Below, piece by piece: positions 50,032-61,412 of a DNA stretch of 64,000 nucleotides. Source of the DNA: Dyadobacter sp. 50-39. GTDB lineage: Bacteria; Bacteroidota; Bacteroidia; Cytophagales; Spirosomataceae. The stretch lies in NCBI GenBank assembly GCA_001898145.1, contig MKSR01000010.1:62001-126000 (forward strand), written 5' to 3'. Under the pieces are notes generated by a model, which saw only the letters and a program-made list of their open reading frames with translations, was not told the origin of the DNA and did not search any database. Positions within the stretch are counted from its first letter, which is position 1; each line of letters starts with the position of its first letter. The position numbers and the translations under genes were made by a program.

Positions 50032-53000
50032 ATGAAACGCAACTTTACCTGGACGGCCTGCATACTCGCATCGCTCTTGATCGTTTCCGGCGTCCGCCGC
50101 ACACTTTTGCCGGCTAACAAAATCGCCACCATCCAACACGGCAGTCAAATCGCGCATCCTGCATTTCAACCCAAATTCCCTGCACTTCCCGGTCAGGCCG
50201 GCTTGTCGAATGCCGGTAAAGCCGAGTCGGCTGAGGACATTGAAACACTCAAAGGTGGTGACTGGTACAAGAACGTTATGAGCGATATAGAGCGTAAAAG
50301 CTACTTTGTGGCATCCTCCGGCGACAGTGTCAATAGCATTAACCCAAAACAGAAAATGCAGGCTGTGTACCGAACTGACGGTTTTACCTTGTCGAACATG
50401 CCGGATCGCCACGACCCTGCAAAACTGGAAAACAGCATTCCAGATAGCTCTTCCCGGCAAAACTGGAAACTGAATATGCGTGTGCAGGGGTTGTATGCGG
50501 ACGGTGTGCTGGCCATTTCAAATGATCCCGACCCCAAGATTGCTACCGACACGAGTGAAGTCACTTTTACCCACCATAACCAGCTGGTGGTTCAGTACCA
50601 GAATCGGGAAGATGGTGTGCGGCAGAATTTTATTGTAAAAAATAAGCCTTCCGTAAATGCACAGGAGCTTCGGGTTAAAATGAAGTTTTCGGGAGAATGG
50701 ACGGTTAACCAGGCTGATCCAAATGAACTACAATTCGCCCTGGAAAATAAAGAAGGAGAGCTGACTACCAAAGTCATTTATAAGGACATTAAAGCCTGGG
50801 ACGCGAATGGAAACATCCTGGCTGCCCGCATGGAAACGGGTAAAGACCACGATTTCAGTCTGGTAGTGGCGGTGGCGGATGCAGCATATCCTGTGACGAT
50901 CGATCCGCTATCTACCACTGCCAGTACTACATTAACCGGCCCGTCGGCCAACGCTAGTTTCGGGTGCAGCGTGGCGGGCGCGGGCGATGTGAATGGGGAT
51001 GGCTATGGCGATGTGGTCGTGGGGGCTTACGGGCTCGCGGCCAATGCGGGTGCGGCTTACATCTATATGGGCAGCGCGACGGGATTGTCCACCAGCCCGG
51101 CCAGGATTTTGACCGGTCCGGCAAACAGCTATTTCGGTTCCTCCGTGGCAAGCGGCGACGTGAATGGGGATAATCGCAGCGATGTGATCGTGGGGGCTTA
51201 TCGATATGCCGGCAACGCCGGCGCAGCCTACATTTATCACGGAACTTCCACCGGGCTTAATACCACACCGGCCGTCATATTAACCGGATCGGCCGGCAGT
51301 ATGCTGGGTATCAGCGTAGCAGCGATCGACCTGAATGCGGACGCTTTTGGTGATGTTATCGTTGGCGCGTCCAATTTTAATGCCGGTACAGGCCGTGCCA
51401 CGGTTTACCTGGGCAAGCCCGGGGGCATTTCACCAACACCAACCTATATTTTGAATGGTACTGTTGCCAATGGCCGCTTCGGGTGCAGCGTCGCCGGTGC
51501 GGGTGATGTGAACGGGGACATTTTTGGCGACATTATAGTCGGGGCGAGCGAAGCGAACCAGGCATATATTTACCATGGAAATGAGGATGGCATGTATACT
51601 TCCGTCGCATCCACATTAACCAGTCCTGCATTCAATACGTCTTATGGCCTGCGCGTTTCGGGTGCCGGGGATACGGATGGCGACGGGTACTGTGAAGTGA
51701 TCGTGGGTGCCTATGCGAATAATGCGGCATATGTGTATAAAGGCAGCCCTGCTGGAACGCAGACCTCGCCGGCAAAAAGCTTTGCGGGTTACGGGGGCGT
51801 GAGTGTTGCCGGTGTGGGCGACGTCAATGGCGACGGCTATGCAGATGTGATGGTGGGTGCAAGTTCAACCGGCACTTACGCGGGCTCGGCGTATCTTTTT
51901 CAGGGCAGCGCATTGGGATTACCTTCTGCCCCGAGCCAAACTTTTCAGGGATCTGCCGGGTATTACAGCTATTTTGGATGCAGCGTTGCGGCTGCGGGAG
52001 ACATCAATGGGGATGGTTACAGCGATGCTATCGTCGGTGCATCGGGTACTTCGTCCAACACTGGCTCCGCTTATGTTTACCTGGGCAGTCCAGTCATGCT
52101 CACATCGGCGTCAACTTTGAGCGGTGCCATTTCCTTTGGATTTAGCGTAGCCCATGCCGGGGATATGAATGGAGACGGATACGGAGATGTGGTCGTCGCA
52201 GCTATCATTAATACCTCGCAATATGGGACTATTTATCTATATCCTGGCAGCGCCGGCGGCCTGGCCACCAGCGCCTCGTCGCAGTTAAGTATGGGCGGAC
52301 ATATGGACTATCTTGGATACAGCCTGGCCCGCGCAGGAGATGTCAATGGCGACGGATTCAGCGATATCATCGTGGGCACACTCAATGTAAAAAAAGCCTA
52401 TGTCCTGCATGGAAGCGCACAGGGGCAGCTGATACTTGGTACAACGTTACAGGAAACCACCGAACGGTTTGGATTTATCGTCGATGGTGCCGGTGACATC
52501 AATGCAGACGGTTACGATGATGTGATCGCAGGTGGAACAGGCACGGCTTCCAAGGCATACGTTTACATGGGATCTGCGTCCGGCGTCGCCACCACGGCGA
52601 CTACCATACTCGCCCGCCCAAATTTAACCTTTGGTACCATAGTTTCGGGAATAGGGGACGTCAATGGCGACGGGTATGGCGATGTTATGATGATGATAGC
52701 CTACAATGATTTAAACATTCAGACAAATAGTGATCGGGGCCACATCTACCTGGGCAGTGCCACCGGCTTATCCAATGTTCCATCGACAGTCATTGCGCCA
52801 TACCTCGGAGTGGGTGGTTTGGTATCGAGGGTCGCCAATGCAGGAGATGTCAATGGCGATGGGTACGGAGATGTCATTATCGGTTCAGCCAGTTCTTATT
52901 CGAAGGCTGGGTCTGCCTATTTATACAAAGGAAGTTCATCAGGCATTTCCAACAGCAATTACATACTGATCCAGGGATCACCTGGCGAAGGTTTCGGGAG

Positions 53001-53973
53001 CAATGCGAGTGCGGGTGATATCAACCGCGACGGATATAGCGACCTGGTGATCAGCACCTCCGGCAATGATTACGGCCCGAGGATTGTAAAAATTTACAAA
53101 GGCGGTGCGTCTGGTCTGGTTTATTCAAATACTATTCCTGGTTCTGGCAATGTGAATGGCGCCATCTGCTCGGCATCGGGCGATATTAATGGCGACGGCT
53201 ACAGCGACATTATTGTCCAAGCCAATTCTACTAATTCCGTAAATGTCTACCTGGGAAATGGCGGAAGCAAACGGGGTAACATGTTCCGTCTTTATAATTC
53301 CGACCTGACCTCCCGGATCAGCGCTGCCAACAACCTGAGTACCACTTTCGGCGTCGGCCTTTTTGTCCGGCCAGCCGGTGGAACAGCTTATGCAAGGTTA
53401 ATATGGGAAACAAAACCGCAGGGAGTACCATTCAGCAGCGGATCTTCCATTACGAATTATACAGGCAAAACCGGTTTGGAAACCTTTACCTACATTGGCC
53501 CCGCCGGCACGGAGCTGAAAGCACTGGTCGCCAAAACAGGACGTTACACAAAGGTCAGGGTCAGGCTCGAATACTGGTCTGCTGACCGCCCATTCGGACA
53601 GACTTACGGCCCGTGGATTTATTTACAAAACCATAATCCGGGTGTTTTGAACAAAAATGTGCCGAATGCCAGAATGTATGCGTCCGAGCGCTACGAAATG
53701 TCGCAGGAAGAAGTAAAACCCGCGGCATTTAAACTAACCGTCTACCCGAATCCGGTTGTCGACAAGCTGAACCTGAAACTGGAAGACGGCTTTACGTGGG
53801 GCCAGATCAGGAACATTCAGATCGTCAATACCAGTGGAAACATATTGTACAATGCCGGCCAGGTGCGGCACGGCGAAGTGAATGTATCGGCGCTGGGCAG
53901 CGGAAATTATATTATCAGACTTGTTCACCAAGACGGTACGGTCTACCACTCCAAATTCACCATCATCCGATAG
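50032..53973 (+). CDS. FG-GAP repeat protein with type IX sorting domain
   Basis: This 1313-residue secreted protein has a signal-type N-terminus (CILASLLIVSGVRRT), a region of about 290 residues before the repeats that includes a jelly-roll-like segment, and 14 FG-GAP repeats (pattern GDVNGDGYGDVVVGA) spanning roughly 50980-53210. The Asp/Asn-rich loops bind calcium in integrin-type propellers; two seven-bladed propellers would fit 14 repeats. A type A sorting domain ends it (LTVYPNPVVDKLNLKL, YIIRLVHQDGTVYHSKFTI). It is likely surface-exposed and adhesive. Repeats differ in sequence, some with altered calcium loops (AIDLNADAFGD, MMMIA). Confidence 0.93.
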   Translation: MKRNFTWTACILASLLIVSGVRRTLLPANKIATIQHGSQIAHPAFQPKFPALPGQAGLSNAGKAESAEDIETLKGGDWYKNVMSDIERKSYFVASSGDSVNSINPKQKMQAVYRTDGFTLSNMPDRHDPAKLENSIPDSSSRQNWKLNMRVQGLYADGVLAISNDPDPKIATDTSEVTFTHHNQLVVQYQNREDGVRQNFIVKNKPSVNAQELRVKMKFSGEWTVNQADPNELQFALENKEGELTTKVIYKDIKAWDANGNILAARMETGKDHDFSLVVAVADAAYPVTIDPLSTTASTTLTGPSANASFGCSVAGAGDVNGDGYGDVVVGAYGLAANAGAAYIYMGSATGLSTSPARILTGPANSYFGSSVASGDVNGDNRSDVIVGAYRYAGNAGAAYIYHGTSTGLNTTPAVILTGSAGSMLGISVAAIDLNADAFGDVIVGASNFNAGTGRATVYLGKPGGISPTPTYILNGTVANGRFGCSVAGAGDVNGDIFGDIIVGASEANQAYIYHGNEDGMYTSVASTLTSPAFNTSYGLRVSGAGDTDGDGYCEVIVGAYANNAAYVYKGSPAGTQTSPAKSFAGYGGVSVAGVGDVNGDGYADVMVGASSTGTYAGSAYLFQGSALGLPSAPSQTFQGSAGYYSYFGCSVAAAGDINGDGYSDAIVGASGTSSNTGSAYVYLGSPVMLTSASTLSGAISFGFSVAHAGDMNGDGYGDVVVAAIINTSQYGTIYLYPGSAGGLATSASSQLSMGGHMDYLGYSLARAGDVNGDGFSDIIVGTLNVKKAYVLHGSAQGQLILGTTLQETTERFGFIVDGAGDINADGYDDVIAGGTGTASKAYVYMGSASGVATTATTILARPNLTFGTIVSGIGDVNGDGYGDVMMMIAYNDLNIQTNSDRGHIYLGSATGLSNVPSTVIAPYLGVGGLVSRVANAGDVNGDGYGDVIIGSASSYSKAGSAYLYKGSSSGISNSNYILIQGSPGEGFGSNASAGDINRDGYSDLVISTSGNDYGPRIVKIYKGGASGLVYSNTIPGSGNVNGAICSASGDINGDGYSDIIVQANSTNSVNVYLGNGGSKRGNMFRLYNSDLTSRISAANNLSTTFGVGLFVRPAGGTAYARLIWETKPQGVPFSSGSSITNYTGKTGLETFTYIGPAGTELKALVAKTGRYTKVRVRLEYWSADRPFGQTYGPWIYLQNHNPGVLNKNVPNARMYASERYEMSQEEVKPAAFKLTVYPNPVVDKLNLKLEDGFTWGQIRNIQIVNTSGNILYNAGQVRHGEVNVSALGSGNYIIRLVHQDGTVYHSKFTIIR

Positions 53974-56251: not shown

Positions 56252-56326
56252 TTATAATTCCGTAACGGCTGTGGGATACCGGTTTTTTTGCTTTGCATTA
56301 TCCAAACACAAAAAACATCGGAAAGA

Positions 56327-57613
56327 ATGATCAAACCACTGCTCGGGCTGTCACTTACAGCCCTCATTTTCAGCTCCTGCACGAAGGACCACGACCCTCA
56401 GCCGACCTCCAAAAGCATTACCATAGAGAACGTGCTGGACAGCAAACCGCTCGTGGAGTCGGGCACATTCAAGGGCACCGGCACGCCGCCCGTGATCCTT
56501 CCGGGACAATCCGTTTCCTTTTCCTTCTCGGCCGCCAAAAATCAGCGCCTCACTTTTGCTACCATGTACGGATGGAGCAATGACCTCTTCTTTGCGCCGG
56601 AAAATCCGGGCATCAGGCTGTATGGCGACGACGGCACCCCGATGACCGGTGATGTTTCGGCGCAGATCAAACTCTGGGATAACGGCACACGGGTGAACGC
56701 TGTGCCCGGCATGGCCCTCGCCCATCCCGGCACCGCCGAAGCCACACCCAAGAATATCAAAGAAGTGAACGGGACCGACGACTATGGAAATGCATTCCTG
56801 CCTGCGTCGCAATTAATGAATGTGTCGCTGGCCTATGACGGCAATTCGATGTTCACGATCACGATTAAGAACCAGTCGGGCGGGACGGCAAACGAAACCC
56901 CGTTCAGTCCGGGCGTGTGGGCCATTTCGTACGTAGCCGGGGGAAACCTGCTGCTGCCGGAGCCGGTCTATTCGGCTGGTAAAGCCACTACGGATGCACT
57001 GACGCGCATCGCCGAGGCGGGGGACAACACACCGCTGGGCACCTGGCTGGCCTCGCAGACCGGCATTTTTACGCCTTTATCGCCCATACTGGTGGTGGTA
57101 TACAGTGGTACTGAAAATCCGTTTTTCAAAACCGGCGAAAACGATCGCGGTCAGGGCTTGAAAGACCTCGCGCAGAAAGGTAATGCCGATATTCTCGCCG
57201 CTGCATTGCAGGGCAAGCCGGGTATCAAAAATGTGTACGTTCTCAAAGAACCGACGAGTACCGTGCTGCTCCCGATGATCGGTGGTAATGCGGGCGGAAA
57301 GGTATCGCAAGCGCTCACGCTCGCACCCGGCGACCGCATTGCGCTCGCAACAATGTACGGGTTTTCCAACGACTGGTTTTTCGCAACCAGCGGCAACGAT
57401 ATCGATGGCAGTGCAACCGGCGATGTATCGGGTTCGGTGGCATTGTACGACAACGGCACCGCCCTCGATCAGTTCCCGGGCGCTGGTATCACGCAGTTCA
57501 ACCTCGCCGGAACGCCGCTGAGCGAGAGCAAGGCTATTGCCCCCGTTCCAAATCCCAATGCGTTCACCACGCTGCCGGCTATCGGCAGCATCATTAAGGT
57601 CACATTACAGTAA
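56327..57613 (+). CDS. lipoprotein with two spondin-type domains
   Basis: From ATG 56327 the protein is 428 residues with a lipoprotein signal (TALIFSSC, Cys18). Two spondin-N-like domains are visible: the first with SFSFSAAKNQRLTFATMYGW, SNDLFFAPENPGIRLY and AQIKLWDNGTRVNAVPG; the second with LAPGDRIALATMYGFSNDWF and SVALYDNGTALDQFPG. The duplicated motif Y-G-x-S-N-D-x-F-F-A marks an internal duplication. Bacterial spondin-domain proteins are exported and of unknown role. The longer frame from 56288 has no support. It precedes the YHS genes across a tandem repeat. Confidence 0.88.
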   Translation: MIKPLLGLSLTALIFSSCTKDHDPQPTSKSITIENVLDSKPLVESGTFKGTGTPPVILPGQSVSFSFSAAKNQRLTFATMYGWSNDLFFAPENPGIRLYGDDGTPMTGDVSAQIKLWDNGTRVNAVPGMALAHPGTAEATPKNIKEVNGTDDYGNAFLPASQLMNVSLAYDGNSMFTITIKNQSGGTANETPFSPGVWAISYVAGGNLLLPEPVYSAGKATTDALTRIAEAGDNTPLGTWLASQTGIFTPLSPILVVVYSGTENPFFKTGENDRGQGLKDLAQKGNADILAAALQGKPGIKNVYVLKEPTSTVLLPMIGGNAGGKVSQALTLAPGDRIALATMYGFSNDWFFATSGNDIDGSATGDVSGSVALYDNGTALDQFPGAGITQFNLAGTPLSESKAIAPVPNPNAFTTLPAIGSIIKVTLQ

Positions 57614-57746: not shown

Positions 57747-58211
57747 ATGAAAAAGCAAATTGCACTACTCGCACTAGTCGTCCTGTCGGCCTGCGCCGGC
57801 TTCGCGCAAACGCCCGAAGTGCGTAAAAAACAGTACAACCTAGAATCCGGCCTTGCAATACAGGGCTACGATCCCGTGGCCTATTTCACCATGCAAAAGG
57901 CCGTAGAGGGTAAAAAAGAGTTTTCGGCCAACTACAATGGCGTGACCTACCATTTCACCTCGAAAGCCAACCGGGACGAGTTCACCCAACACCCGATGCG
58001 TTATGAACCGCAGTTCGGAGGCTGGTGTGCCTATGCCATGGGTAAGAAAGGGGAAAAAGTAGAGGTCGATCCGGAAACCTTCAAAGTCGTAGACGGGAAG
58101 CTCTATCTTTTTTACAACAAATATTTCAACAACACCCTCAAAAGCTGGAACCAGGATGAGGCGCGTTTGAAAACGCAGGCCGACAATCACTGGACTAAAT
58201 TCGTACCCTAA
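57747..58211 (+). CDS. YHS-domain secreted protein (first copy)
   Basis: This 154-residue protein has a signal peptide (LALVVLSACAGFAQ) and a YHS domain: LAIQGYDPVAYFTM, VTYHFTSKANRDEFTQHPMR, YEPQFGGWCAYAMGKKG and the C-terminal VDGKLYLFYNKYF. YHS domains bind metal in some proteins such as copper-transport ATPases and methane-oxidation proteins; here the single Cys in GGWCAYA is the candidate ligand. It is followed 12 bases later by a second copy. Confidence 0.92.
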   Translation: MKKQIALLALVVLSACAGFAQTPEVRKKQYNLESGLAIQGYDPVAYFTMQKAVEGKKEFSANYNGVTYHFTSKANRDEFTQHPMRYEPQFGGWCAYAMGKKGEKVEVDPETFKVVDGKLYLFYNKYFNNTLKSWNQDEARLKTQADNHWTKFVP

Positions 58212-58223
58212 CCTCGCATTTCG

Positions 58224-58667
58224 ATGAACAAATTCCTTTTGATACTCGCGCTAACGATCAGCGCATTCGCTGCCCGCGCCCAGCAATCCGAAATATTTGC
58301 ACCCGGCGGCAAAGCGCTCAAAGGCTATGATGTAGTGGCATTCTTCAACGAAGCCAAACCCGTGGCAGGCGCCGATAGCCTCACTTATGCATACATGGGT
58401 GCCGAATGGCTTTTCGCCAACCGCCGCAACCTGGAAGCATTCAAGGCCAATCCGGAGAAATATGTGCCGCAATACGGCGGCTACTGCGCCTACGGCACCT
58501 CGCAGGGGCATAAAGCGCCTACCGAAGCCGAAACCTGGACGATCGTAGGGGACAAGTTGTATTTCAACTACAATATGAAGGTAAAAAACAGCTGGACGAA
58601 AAAGCAGGACGAGCTGATCGACAAGGCGGATGTCCAGTGGCCATTGATCAAACACAAAGCCGAATGA
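58224..58667 (+). CDS. YHS-domain secreted protein (second copy)
   Basis: This 147-residue protein has a signal peptide (ILALTISAFAARAQ) and a YHS domain with ALKGYDVVAFFNE, EWLFANRRNLEAFKANPEKY, VPQYGGYCAYGTSQG and WTIVGDKLYFNYNMKVKNSW. It has the same layout as the preceding gene, with the same GGxCAY motif and clear divergence elsewhere. The two are probably a tandem duplication. Its stop overlaps the start of the DoxX gene. Confidence 0.92.
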   Translation: MNKFLLILALTISAFAARAQQSEIFAPGGKALKGYDVVAFFNEAKPVAGADSLTYAYMGAEWLFANRRNLEAFKANPEKYVPQYGGYCAYGTSQGHKAPTEAETWTIVGDKLYFNYNMKVKNSWTKKQDELIDKADVQWPLIKHKAE

Positions 58668-59062
58668 CGATGAAAACCCGCAACACCTGGACCTGGCTGC
58701 TGAGAGTGGTAGCCGCGGGCATTATGCTGCAAACGCTGTACTTCAAATTTACCGCCGATCCGGAATCCGTTTTCATCTTCTCCAAAGTGGGTATGGAGCC
58801 GTGGGGCCGCATTCTGGTGGGTGTTTTTGAACTCGTCGCCTCAATACTGATCGTCATCCCCCGCACGACGGCCTACGGGGCGCTGATCGGCATCGGGGTC
58901 ATGACCGGCGCAGTGTTCATGCACATCACCCGGCTGGGTATCGAAGTACAAAACGATTCGGGGCAGCTCTTCGTCTACGCGCTGCTGGTCCTTGGCAGCT
59001 GCCTTGCCCTGGCCTACCTGCAACGCGACAGCCTCTCGGGCATCCGCACGCAGGACCGATAG
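58664..59062 (+). CDS. DoxX-like membrane protein
   Basis: From ATG 58664 (ATGA overlap with the YHS stop) the protein is 132 residues; ATG 58670 is an alternative. It has four membrane helices (WLLRVVAAGIMLQTLYFKFT; ILVGVFELVASILIVIP; YGALIGIGVMTGAVFMHI; LFVYALLVLGSCLALAYL), the DoxX/DUF4870-like topology. It lies in an operon with the YHS pair, so exported metal-binding protein and membrane redox protein may work together. A strong terminator follows. Confidence 0.85.
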   Translation: MTMKTRNTWTWLLRVVAAGIMLQTLYFKFTADPESVFIFSKVGMEPWGRILVGVFELVASILIVIPRTTAYGALIGIGVMTGAVFMHITRLGIEVQNDSGQLFVYALLVLGSCLALAYLQRDSLSGIRTQDR

Positions 59063-59067
59063 CATTC

Positions 59068-59091
59068 AACCATGCCTTTCGGGGCATGGTT
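59068..59091 (+). terminator. intrinsic terminator after the DoxX gene
   Basis: Perfect 9-base arms AACCATGCC (59068-59076) and GGCATGGTT (59083-59091) with loop TTTCGG are followed by TTTAT. It separates the YHS-DoxX operon from the DinB gene and shows that the DinB start at 59086 (inside the stem) is wrong. Confidence 0.8.
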
Positions 59092-59118: not shown

Positions 59119-59625
59119 ATGAACAGACACATCCATAAGTCCGTGACCGCCATACTCGAACAGATCCACGAGGTGCTAGCCGCATTGGACGATGCGCATT
59201 ACACCGAGCGCCTGGCGGTTCTGTCCGGCGCCTCGCTGGGGGAACACGTCCGGCATATCGTCGAGTTTTTTGAAGAACTGGAAGCGGGCTGCCTTACGGG
59301 CGTCGTAGATTATGATGCCCGTAAGCGGCAGAAAGACCTTGAAACATCCCGTGCCTATGCGATGCTGAAGTTACAGCAAATCGCAGCAGGCATCCGACCG
59401 CACGGCAAGGCATTGAACCTGGCCTGCAAAATGCCGCTTAACGGAGCCCGCTACCTGGTGGCGACCAGTTATGAAAGGGAACTGCTCTATAACCTCGAAC
59501 ACGCGGTGCACCACATGGCACTGATGAAAATCGGGGTCGAGGCGATGACCGATATCAGTCTGCCAGCGCATTTCGGTGTGGCCCGCTCTACGATCGAATA
59601 CCGTCAAACCCAATGTGCACAGTAA
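59119..59625 (+). CDS. DinB-family metal-binding protein
   Basis: From ATG 59119 (MNRHIHKSVTAILEQIHEVL) the protein is 168 residues with a four-helix DinB fold. Candidate metal ligands are the histidines in GEHVRHIVEFFEELEAG and NLEHAVHHMALMKIGVEAM. DinB proteins include thiol-dependent transferases for bacillithiol-like thiols, and Bacteroidota often carry them. Its end overlaps the next gene by 13 bases, so the two are translated together. Confidence 0.85.
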   Translation: MNRHIHKSVTAILEQIHEVLAALDDAHYTERLAVLSGASLGEHVRHIVEFFEELEAGCLTGVVDYDARKRQKDLETSRAYAMLKLQQIAAGIRPHGKALNLACKMPLNGARYLVATSYERELLYNLEHAVHHMALMKIGVEAMTDISLPAHFGVARSTIEYRQTQCAQ

Positions 59626-61412
59626 CCTACATCCCTACCTCCACCGGCGTGCTGCTCACCTCCAACCGCGATGAGCGTATGGACCGCGCGCGCGCATTGC
59701 CCCCCGCCATTTACCCGGAAGGCGACCGCTCCCTCACTTACCCGAAGGACGCGCAGGCAGGCGGCACCTGGATCGCACTCCGGGGCGGGCGTTCCGCGGC
59801 GGTGCTGCTCAATGGGGGCTTCACAAATCATGCACGCAAAACACATTATACGAAAAGCCGCGGGCTGGTGATGCTGGACATTGTCTCGGCGGAAGTGCCG
59901 CTAAGCCGGTTCCGCGGCATGTCGCTGGAAGCCATCGAGCCATTTACGTTGATACTCCTCACCGACGGCGAGCTGATGCGGTGCACCTGGGATGGAATGC
60001 AAAAGCATATCAGTTACCCGGACCCGCAAAAGGCGCATATATGGTCGTCGGCCACGCTATATGGGCAGGAGGTGCGTATGGAGCGGGAAGGAATGCTGCA
60101 AAACTGGCTGTCCTGCGCACCTCAGCTTACAGCGGAAACGGTGCTGGGCCTGCACCTTTCGCCATCTTTGAAATACGAAACCAGCCCCGCACGCGAGTAT
60201 GCACACATGCGGACCGTGAGCGTAACCTCGCTGGAATTACCAACCGACGGCGCGGCCAGCATCCGCTACCATGATCTTCTGCACGGCAAGTACGATCCTG
60301 ATCAGGAGACGGGTAAGATGGCACTCCAAAATCCAAACTCCGCATTGCCTGATTTCGACAGCTTCTACTGGAAAGCCCGCCGGTTCTTCATCCGGCTCGG
60401 GCATTGGGAATACTGGCCCATGGAGTGCGTGTACCTGCCGCTGCTCCCGCTTTGGCTGTGGCTTAGTCTCCGCGCGCGGTCGCTGCTGTTTTTCAGCGCT
60501 GCTAATCCGGGCATTCAGTATTCGGGGTTCATCCATGAGCGGAAAAGCGACATTTATCCACTGCTTCCGCCGGATTTGTACCCGAAAACAGTGCTTTGCC
60601 CGGCCGGCTCGACAGCCTCCGCTGTCGCGTCGATGCTTGCGGAGCATTGCCTTGCATTCCCTTTGATCGCCAAACCCGATATCGGCGAGCGCGGTGTGCA
60701 GGTGAAGCTGCTGAAAAGCGCGCAGGACCTGGAAGCGTACCGGCTCGCCAGCCGCGTCGACTTCCTTTTGCAGCAGTATGTGGATTATGAAAATGAAGCG
60801 GGGATTTTCTACTTCCGAATTCCTGGTACAGCGCACGGGCATATTTCCGGCATTGTCGGGAAAGAATTCCTGCGCGTGACCGGCGACGGGCGGAGCACGA
60901 CGCTTTCCCTATTAACCCAAAACAACCGGGCGATTTTGCAGCTTCCGGCATTGGAAAAAGCTTATGGCGAAGCGCTTCTCGCTATACCCTCTGCCGGTGA
61001 ATCCCTCAACCTCGTCCCCTACGGTAACCACAGCCGCGGCGCTAAGTTCATCGACCTTGCCGATCGCATAACACCTGCATTGACAGCCGCCATCGACGAG
61101 GTCTGCCAGCGGATTCCGGGTTTCGATTTCGGCAGGCTGGACATCCGTTTCAAAAGCTGGGAAGACCTGGAAGCCGGAAGCAACTTCTCGATCATCGAGC
61201 TCAACGGCACGGGCAGCGAACCGACCCACATTTACGATCCCTCGCATTCATTACTTTTCGCCTGGAAAGAGATTTACCGGCATTGGAAAGTCGTATTTCA
61301 CATCAGCCTTCAAAACGTCCGCAACGGCAGGCAGCGCCTTATGACCTGGCGGGAAGGTCGCCGCATGCGCTATGAGCATCGCAAGCATTTTGAGCGGTTA
61401 GAAATGCATTGA
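59613..61412 (+). CDS. NRDE (TANGO2-like)/ATP-grasp fusion protein
   Basis: This single 599-residue frame has two families. Residues 1-245 form an NRDE/TANGO2 domain, starting MCTVTYIPTSTGVLLTSNRD with Cys2 as the expected N-terminal nucleophile and continuing AGGTWIALRGGRSAAVLLNG. Residues about 265-560 resemble a D-Ala-D-Ala ligase-type ATP-grasp: LGHWEYWPMECVYLPLLPLW, RARSLLFFSAANPGIQYSGF, nucleotide-binding LIAKPDIGERGVQVKLL, LLQQYVDYENEAGIFYFR and metal-binding GRLDIRFKSWEDL and IIELNGTGSEP. The two families usually occur as separate proteins. The fusion implies a common substrate pathway with the overlapping DinB gene; the reaction is unknown. Confidence 0.85.
   Translation: MCTVTYIPTSTGVLLTSNRDERMDRARALPPAIYPEGDRSLTYPKDAQAGGTWIALRGGRSAAVLLNGGFTNHARKTHYTKSRGLVMLDIVSAEVPLSRFRGMSLEAIEPFTLILLTDGELMRCTWDGMQKHISYPDPQKAHIWSSATLYGQEVRMEREGMLQNWLSCAPQLTAETVLGLHLSPSLKYETSPAREYAHMRTVSVTSLELPTDGAASIRYHDLLHGKYDPDQETGKMALQNPNSALPDFDSFYWKARRFFIRLGHWEYWPMECVYLPLLPLWLWLSLRARSLLFFSAANPGIQYSGFIHERKSDIYPLLPPDLYPKTVLCPAGSTASAVASMLAEHCLAFPLIAKPDIGERGVQVKLLKSAQDLEAYRLASRVDFLLQQYVDYENEAGIFYFRIPGTAHGHISGIVGKEFLRVTGDGRSTTLSLLTQNNRAILQLPALEKAYGEALLAIPSAGESLNLVPYGNHSRGAKFIDLADRITPALTAAIDEVCQRIPGFDFGRLDIRFKSWEDLEAGSNFSIIELNGTGSEPTHIYDPSHSLLFAWKEIYRHWKVVFHISLQNVRNGRQRLMTWREGRRMRYEHRKHFERLEMH

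Follow-up and report, generated by a model that had tools for sequence, protein, structure and literature searches.

What might a bacterial protein do when it joins, in one chain, a TANGO2-type domain to an ATP-dependent ligase? The question is raised by a gene at 59613..61412 on the forward strand of the window, by which we mean the whole 64,000-nucleotide stretch of Dyadobacter sp. 50-39 DNA analyzed here (assembly GCA_001898145.1, contig MKSR01000010.1, positions 62,001 to 126,000). The gene is a single stop-free frame of 599 residues, beginning MCTVTYIP, in which an NRDE/TANGO2 domain (residues ~1–230), a linker (~231–246), and an ATP-grasp domain (~250–599) follow one another, and it overlaps the end of a gene for a DinB-fold protein. 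We give a probability of roughly 0.4 to the following reading: the fused protein is an enzyme with two heads and belongs to a biosynthetic module, conserved and probably mobile, which builds or remodels an amide on an amino-acid-derived amphiphile. An earlier note, made from the sequence alone, had described one uninterrupted frame, and this held up, as the fusion recurs in several genera. An assembly join of two genes was ruled out because the same fusion is found in many genomes and the two parts are adjacent genes elsewhere.

Two heads that look kept for activity

The NRDE/TANGO2 domain (59613..60302, forward strand) was recognized both by Pfam, which placed its TANGO2 model at residues 13–116 (E 2.3e-7; 31.7 bits against a cut-off of 22.6), and by conservation across 48 aligned homologues. 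The NRDE motif stands at residues 18–21. Cys2, which the earlier note had expected to be the nucleophile, is kept and is invariant in 48/48 homologues, as are Arg19, Glu21, Asn67, and Ser146, while Asp20 and Arg158 are conserved in at least 90% of them. In Foldseek searches, this part of the protein matched human TANGO2 (8sv7/9bwa; probability 1.00, TMt 0.53–0.61), with further matches to 3gvz and isopenicillin N acyltransferase (2x1d). The available passages of one study give the human TANGO2 residues as Cys2, Asn25, Asp27, Asn157, and Lys166, and align its Asn75 with a catalytic Asn of bile-salt hydrolase (PMC13044924). In the family of the window protein, the first oxyanion Asn position is held by Asn67, and Arg158 aligns three residues beyond human Lys166 and the Arg of other members. 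The window protein thus shares with the TANGO2/NRDE family (PF05742) the MC start, the NRDE motif, the fold, Cys2, the Arg, the Asp, and the first oxyanion Asn, but it differs in having Ser for the second oxyanion Asn, a fused ATP-grasp domain, and a DinB partner.

The ATP-grasp domain (60342..61409, forward strand) is assigned to its superfamily by predicted fold, profile matches, and residue conservation. Its Lys354, Gln387, Glu395, Arg508, Asp510, Glu529, and Asn531 (whole-protein numbering) are invariant in 29/29 rows of an alignment that includes proteobacterial members and members of the VTT type described below. Pfam matched a RimK-like ATP-grasp at residues 340–398 with 16.7 bits, under the cut-off of 21. 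A search of the PDB with the single sequence gave no match; profile searches did, and the ATP-grasp profile matched the cyanophycin-synthetase-type chain 7ta5 (E 5.4e-11) and GshF (3ln6; E 4.6e-7). Foldseek likewise ranked cyanophycin synthetases (7wac among others) and GshF (3ln6) above the Ddl structures that it also returned. Cyanophycin synthetase and GshF are therefore the nearest relatives by fold and profile, and they share the Lys, Asp, Glu, and Asn of the ATP/Mg site. The window domain departs from them in its N-terminal region, which is its own and contains a helix that is aromatic and hydrophobic, and the protein falls far short of full-length cyanophycin synthetase models (18.9–20.9 bits against cut-offs of 850–877). 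The best 19-residue hydropathy means do not establish that the domain opens with a membrane helix: over the N-terminal 120 residues of the 29 rows they run from 0.68 to 1.92, and they do not always fall within the hydrophobic helix.

The nucleotide and metal residues are thus intact, as the earlier note had it, but its label of D-Ala-D-Ala-ligase type was loose, and we rejected Ddl as a family name: no Pfam or NCBIfam Ddl model matches the window protein at E 1. The ATP-grasp fold is common to Ddl and the window domain, and some plasmid relatives are annotated as D-alanine-D-alanine ligase; PF07478 was reached, below its cut-off only, by the ATP-grasps of distant relatives (L101 and Vibrio). 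The AlphaFold2 model of the whole fused protein, made from a 111-row alignment, has a mean predicted local distance difference test score (pLDDT) of 93.9 and a predicted template modeling score of 0.69, with a disordered linker in which residues 234–241 fall below 50. From these residues and models, both heads look kept for activity, the N-terminal nucleophile (Ntn) site being unusual.

Coupling to a DinB gene

The DinB-fold gene lies at 59119..59625 on the forward strand, with ATG 59119 as its likely start (the longest frame runs from 59086). Its stop at 59625 overlaps the ATG of the fused gene at 59613 by 13 bases and falls inside the codons for MCTVT. The earlier note had pointed to this overlap, which recurs exactly in 68/76 loci measured; the other 24 of the 100 loci were not counted, either because DinB was uncalled or because no MCT start stood near. 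Pfam DinB_2 matched the gene product with 20 bits, below the cut-off of 24.8. The predicted model (pLDDT 94.9) is a four-helix fold whose best matches were 3gor, 3dka, 2f22, and 1rxq, two of them at E ≤0.001; YfiT is matched, and mycothiol transferase and EgtB appear as weak hits. His43, H46, H128, H131, and H132 are invariant in 47 sequences and are candidate metal-triad histidines.

Spread of the module in Bacteroidota

A named-locus set, consisting of the best 80 of 190 relatives and so weighted to near ones, holds the fused form in 20/80, including loci of Dyadobacter, Larkinella, Chitinophaga, Mucilaginibacter, and Siphonobacter. Homologues were matched in 33 of 59 genomes, a set that counts the window's own. 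For the genus Dyadobacter (37 genomes with the window's), the fused gene is present in 9, separate adjacent genes in 9, and neither in 17, while the other 2/37 have one in-frame TAA between the NRDE and ATP-grasp parts. This count drops two spurious matches, at residues 328–543 of a 930-residue frame in G001 and in a 28-residue piece in G035. The latter (G035:C12:1057210-1057293), a 28-residue ATP-grasp piece, 75% identical, in a 39-residue frame, is possibly a decayed remnant.

DinB of the window family occurs in exactly the same 20/37 genus genomes as the module and in none of the other 17 (Fisher p 6e-11, uncorrected for the relatedness of the genomes). In 5/20 genomes (G002, G022, G023, G026, and G034), DinB lies ~5–8 kb from the module, and in G029 ~1.6 kb; the G023 frame contains one TGA. 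Among 11 further genus genomes, outside the fused-protein search, DinB was found in 7 and not in 4. The earlier note had proposed looking across Bacteroidota genomes for these families together, and the link between NRDE, ATP-grasp, and DinB does prove to be conserved. Because NRDE and ATP-grasp are fused or adjacent in many genomes, it is also plausible, as had been suggested, that they act on one substrate.

The history of the fusion was followed in a tree of 116 ATP-grasp rows, made by a quick method, with several long branches and the L121 domain left out. In this tree, fusion to NRDE takes 3 changes, at least 2 of them forced by starred branches, and gain and loss are indistinguishable. 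Dyadobacter, Chitinophaga, and Mucilaginibacter form a fused clade, with Siphonobacter separate. At least four distant ATP-grasp clades are represented within the genus, and this suggests that the module has been horizontally transferred.

Among 296 genomes sampled across the phylum, few carry the fused form: it occurs in the window's genome and G309, and G210 has a full-length version interrupted by one internal stop. At most 4 candidates per genome were scored in the ATP-grasp/NRDE search and at most 12 in the DinB search, and absences are upper bounds. We counted neighbors within 5 kb, excluding weak TANGO2 matches (in VTT-type genomes these are far away or on other contigs) and taking PF13444 matches only for genomes with ATP-grasp. 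Of the 32 ATP-grasp places of the Bacteroidia type, spread over 31 genomes, 18 have a separate NRDE gene nearby, 22 have DinB, and 0 have PF13444. Conversely, 18/25 separate strong NRDE places are near DinB, and 43/51 DinB places are near ATP-grasp or NRDE. DinB and ATP-grasp look like an apparent core, with NRDE as a frequent partner.

Some other loci deserve mention. The ATP-grasp family also has a second paralogue, which forms its own clade in the tree and stands beside a CCG cysteine-rich cluster gene (L042:2210-3253, L057:1569-2654, L060:1142-2221, L062:1093-2172, L063:755-1861, L081:509-1588, L108:4132-5175, and L114:3473-4516); the L108 copy adjoins an NRDE gene. At L113:3175-4885, an NRDE gene of the window family is followed by a TseH-like/DUF6695 protein, with no family ATP-grasp nearby. 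Two metagenome-assembled genomes, one labeled 'Bacteroidetes' (L085) and one 'Chlorobiota' (L086), carry near-identical ATP-grasps on short branches with the same neighbors; one of them is probably mis-binned, and the Chlorobiota occurrence is therefore unproven.

A distant form beside aminolipid acyltransferases

Outside Bacteroidia, the ATP-grasp is encoded in frames of 812–907 residues at 25 places, one in each of 25 genomes, which represent four families. Two of these long proteins were scanned, and both have a VTT (DedA-like) domain, L102 with an alpha/beta hydrolase as well. A PF13444 gene lies on the same strand within 5 kb at 25/25 of these VTT-type places and DinB at 19/25. At L101, the PF13444 neighbor scores best against OlsB (133 bits) and the PlsC neighbor against OlsA (129 bits), both well under curated cut-offs, and the best model for the VTT part is UptA, below cut-off. 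In a search of plasmids and chromids, Salinivibrio was found to carry VTT, ATP-grasp, DinB, and NRDE with the 13-base overlap, and Azospirillum has VTT and ATP-grasp in a single protein. The Paracoccus ATP-grasp adjoins an alpha/beta hydrolase and VTT, and NRDE is missing there. The hydrolase found in Paracoccus and in the L102 fusion, where NRDE is missing, fits a hydrolase or acyltransferase role for NRDE.

The gene row of Vibrio THAF191d (L122) runs VTT, ATP-grasp, DinB, NRDE, YHS, DoxX/MauE-like, and OlsF-like, the last scoring 428 bits against a cut-off of 620. This row thus brings together genes that neighbor the module in the window and genes that accompany the distant form. Photobacterium (L133) has the same set, with the OlsF-like match split over two frames. 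In Variovorax (L134), a PF13444-type gene adjoins the ATP-grasp and VTT was not found, and in Saprospiraceae (L099), OlsF-like and PlsC genes are nearby. Genes of ornithine and glycine lipid synthesis (OlsBA, OlsF, GlsBA) therefore adjoin the ATP-grasp in some lineages. To our knowledge, the known OlsBA, OlsF, and GlsBA steps use no NRDE, DinB, or ATP-grasp of the module type. The available text of one report describes two V. cholerae OlsF homologues that make ornithine lipids and names a putative four-gene operon, VCA0649-VCA0646, without its products, which speaks neither for nor against the module (PMC12186959).

A proposed biosynthetic module and its alternatives

What the domains are, that their active-site residues are conserved, that they are fused or encoded side by side, and that they are coupled to DinB is established; on this basis, the two-headed enzyme may be pictured as follows. 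The ATP-grasp head would activate a carboxylate as an acyl phosphate and then form an amide or peptide bond, and the NRDE head, as a cysteine Ntn enzyme, would hydrolyze or transfer an acyl or amide group on the same molecule. DinB would be a metal-site enzyme in the same path, and a protein of the membrane would move the product, namely a LysE-type one in many Bacteroidota and VTT in distant members. The picture draws as well on human TANGO2, which binds acyl-CoA (PMC11867700) and is a proposed cysteine Ntn hydrolase (PMC13044924). The substrate, the weakest step of this scheme, would be an aminolipid-like amphiphile derived from an amino acid. A lipid-type substrate appears to be the best lead because distant members are tied to OlsB-, OlsA-, and OlsF-like acyltransferases. 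More specifically, and rather improbably, the module may be an undescribed, horizontally moving system of Bacteroidota and Proteobacteria that tailors aminolipids or lipopeptides. The ATP-grasp would then couple the carboxylate of an N-acyl amino acid with an amine or an amino acid, turning, for instance, a glycine-lipid-like molecule into dipeptide lipids. NRDE would serve as a cysteine acyl-amide hydrolase or acyltransferase on the same lipid, DinB would modify it, and the VTT or LysE-type protein would move it. We do not claim the identity of a serine-glycine-lipid (flavolipin) ligase for the window protein; a published ligase was sought, including in the available part of PMC11631085, and none was found there.

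Several observations weigh against this two-headed amphiphile enzyme. Human Asn157, the second oxyanion Asn, is replaced by Ser146, a column that holds Asn in 5/8 other TANGO2-like proteins and Ser or Ala in the remaining 3 and in Vibrio; the NRDE chemistry may therefore differ or be lost. DinB is absent within 5 kb at 10/32 Bacteroidia-type ATP-grasp places, and the Vibrio L122 DinB and NRDE genes do not overlap. At L131:2109-4236, genes that are YHS-like (by eye), DinB, and ATP-grasp stand without NRDE, and NRDE of the window family is within 5 kb at 0/25 VTT-type places, from which it follows that NRDE is not essential to the core. None of the partners lies near the Komagataeibacter ATP-grasp (L120), and the DoxX label in the Vibrio row is sub-threshold (MauE, 17.7 bits against a cut-off of 27). 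PF13444, the OlsB/OlsF type, has no match in the window's own genome or within 5 kb of the 32 Bacteroidia-type places. The aminolipid link, good as it is for the distant form, is consequently indirect for the type found in the window, where the part must fall to some other acyltransferase or to NRDE itself, unless the substrate is a different one. The usual cargo of LysE exporters is amino acids. Finally, a terminator-like hairpin at 59068..59091 (forward strand; 10-pair stem, T-rich tail) lies between the DoxX gene upstream and the DinB gene, so that DinB and the fused gene may be their own transcript, apart from YHS and DoxX; terminator-like sites in the region number 3 against a shuffle mean of 6.3, and the number is not significant.

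These points leave room for other explanations, for which the genes recurring around the module matter. Neighbor clusters in 100 loci (L001-L020 with short flanks) include DinB at 82, LysE-type at 46, YHS at 43, DoxX at 36, YceI at 18, and MsrB-like at 12. The YceI and DM13 clusters were named by Pfam from representatives, the LysE-type one from a single representative, and the MsrB-like one by eye, and the open reading frame filter missed the DinB genes of L007's genome (G028) and of L133, both of which are present. A possible, if doubtful, account is a path to a soluble metabolite with the protecting-group logic of ergothioneine or of glutathionylspermidine synthetase/amidase, in which the ATP-grasp would attach an amino acid, DinB would act on the conjugate, NRDE would remove the group, and LysE would export the product. 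Ergothioneine is made by the ligase EgtA, by EgtB, which contains a DinB-fold part, and by the cysteine Ntn amidohydrolase EgtC, the same three kinds of enzyme that meet within this module; however, EgtA is not an ATP-grasp enzyme, and EgtB has a further domain absent from the module DinB. Glutathionylspermidine synthetase/amidase fuses a cysteine amidase to an ATP-grasp-type amide ligase, as here, but with an unrelated amidase fold and no DinB. The LysE-type cluster, the resemblance of the DinB model to YfiT and weakly to mycothiol transferase and EgtB, and GshF among the ATP-grasp relatives favor such a path, whereas the absence of NRDE beside the DinB–ATP-grasp pair of L131 and the VTT domains and aminolipid acyltransferases of other lineages do not. 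Nor did any cysteine, glutathione, or histidine-betaine gene recur among the identified clusters, although not all clusters were named and no search was aimed at thiol pathways. The suggestion of the earlier note that DinB works on a thiol conjugate thus found no backing, and the surroundings of the distant members point to an amphiphile, not a thiol.

The NRDE domain has alternatives of its own. It may be a non-catalytic domain that binds lipid or acyl-CoA and only positions or feeds the ATP-grasp, a reading favored by the Ser at the second oxyanion position. According to the available part of one study, human TANGO2 binds acyl-CoA, and its authors state that acyltransferase activity was ruled out (PMC11867700). 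We consider this unlikely in view of Cys2, invariant in 48/48 NRDE domains with Arg19 and Asn67. A role in heme handling or in metal or oxidative stress would liken NRDE to HtpA, the Shewanella TANGO2 homologue, for which the available text describes heme trafficking (PMC10470608). The ATP-grasp would then modify a chelator or carrier, and the YHS, DoxX, YceI, DM13, and MsrB neighbors would be read as redox functions. Those clusters do recur, but the neighbors differ between lineages, heme–TANGO2 interactions are termed nonspecific by one study (PMC13044924), and heme carriage offers no role for an ATP-driven ligase; this is quite unlikely. The module's patchy presence in the genus, where ATP-grasps of several distant clades occur, would also suit an antiphage or other defense cassette carried between genomes, yet no PADLOC model matches the fused protein or DinB and no defense-type gene is among the identified neighbor clusters, which makes that very improbable.

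Neighboring genes in the window

Upstream of the hairpin on the forward strand lie a gene for a DoxX-like membrane protein (58637..59062; Pfam) and two YHS-domain (seleno)protein-type genes identified by Pfam and NCBIfam. The first of these YHS genes (58224..58667) belongs to the recurrent cluster, and the second, of the same type, is at 57747..58211. Further upstream, a 441-residue protein (56288-57613) has no Pfam match at E 1 and, judged by eye, belongs to a cluster that 12/100 loci carry upstream of the module. A 1313-residue protein at 50032-53973 with many 'GDVNGDGY'-like repeats is by eye a secreted FG-GAP repeat protein. Elsewhere, the MsrB-like gene (by eye) stands immediately before DinB in 12 loci, mostly Flavobacterium (L045-L047, L049, L050, L066, L072, L074, and L077-L080). 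Rfam at gathering scores gave no match anywhere in the window.

Significance

The earlier note had singled out this locus as a candidate for an undescribed system, and no description of the fusion or the module was found in the literature searched, which did not cover most subscription journals. Nor was a pairing of an NRDE family protein with an ATP-grasp found there: the NRDE family and domain names led only to PMC11867700, and a text search of the available part of PMC12493201 gave no mention of ATP-grasp. In humans, TANGO2 is a disease gene, and its reaction is under dispute, the protein being described as a heme carrier, an acyl-CoA binder, or a cysteine Ntn hydrolase. Fusions suggest which proteins work together, and here a TANGO2 relative is joined to an enzyme class of well-understood chemistry. 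As relatives of the ligase adjoin aminolipid acyltransferases elsewhere, a possible action of NRDE on an acyl amide becomes testable in a culturable laboratory bacterium. If the aminolipid- or lipopeptide-tailoring reading is true, the TANGO2 family would gain a bacterial enzyme reaction, and with it a lead to the human one.

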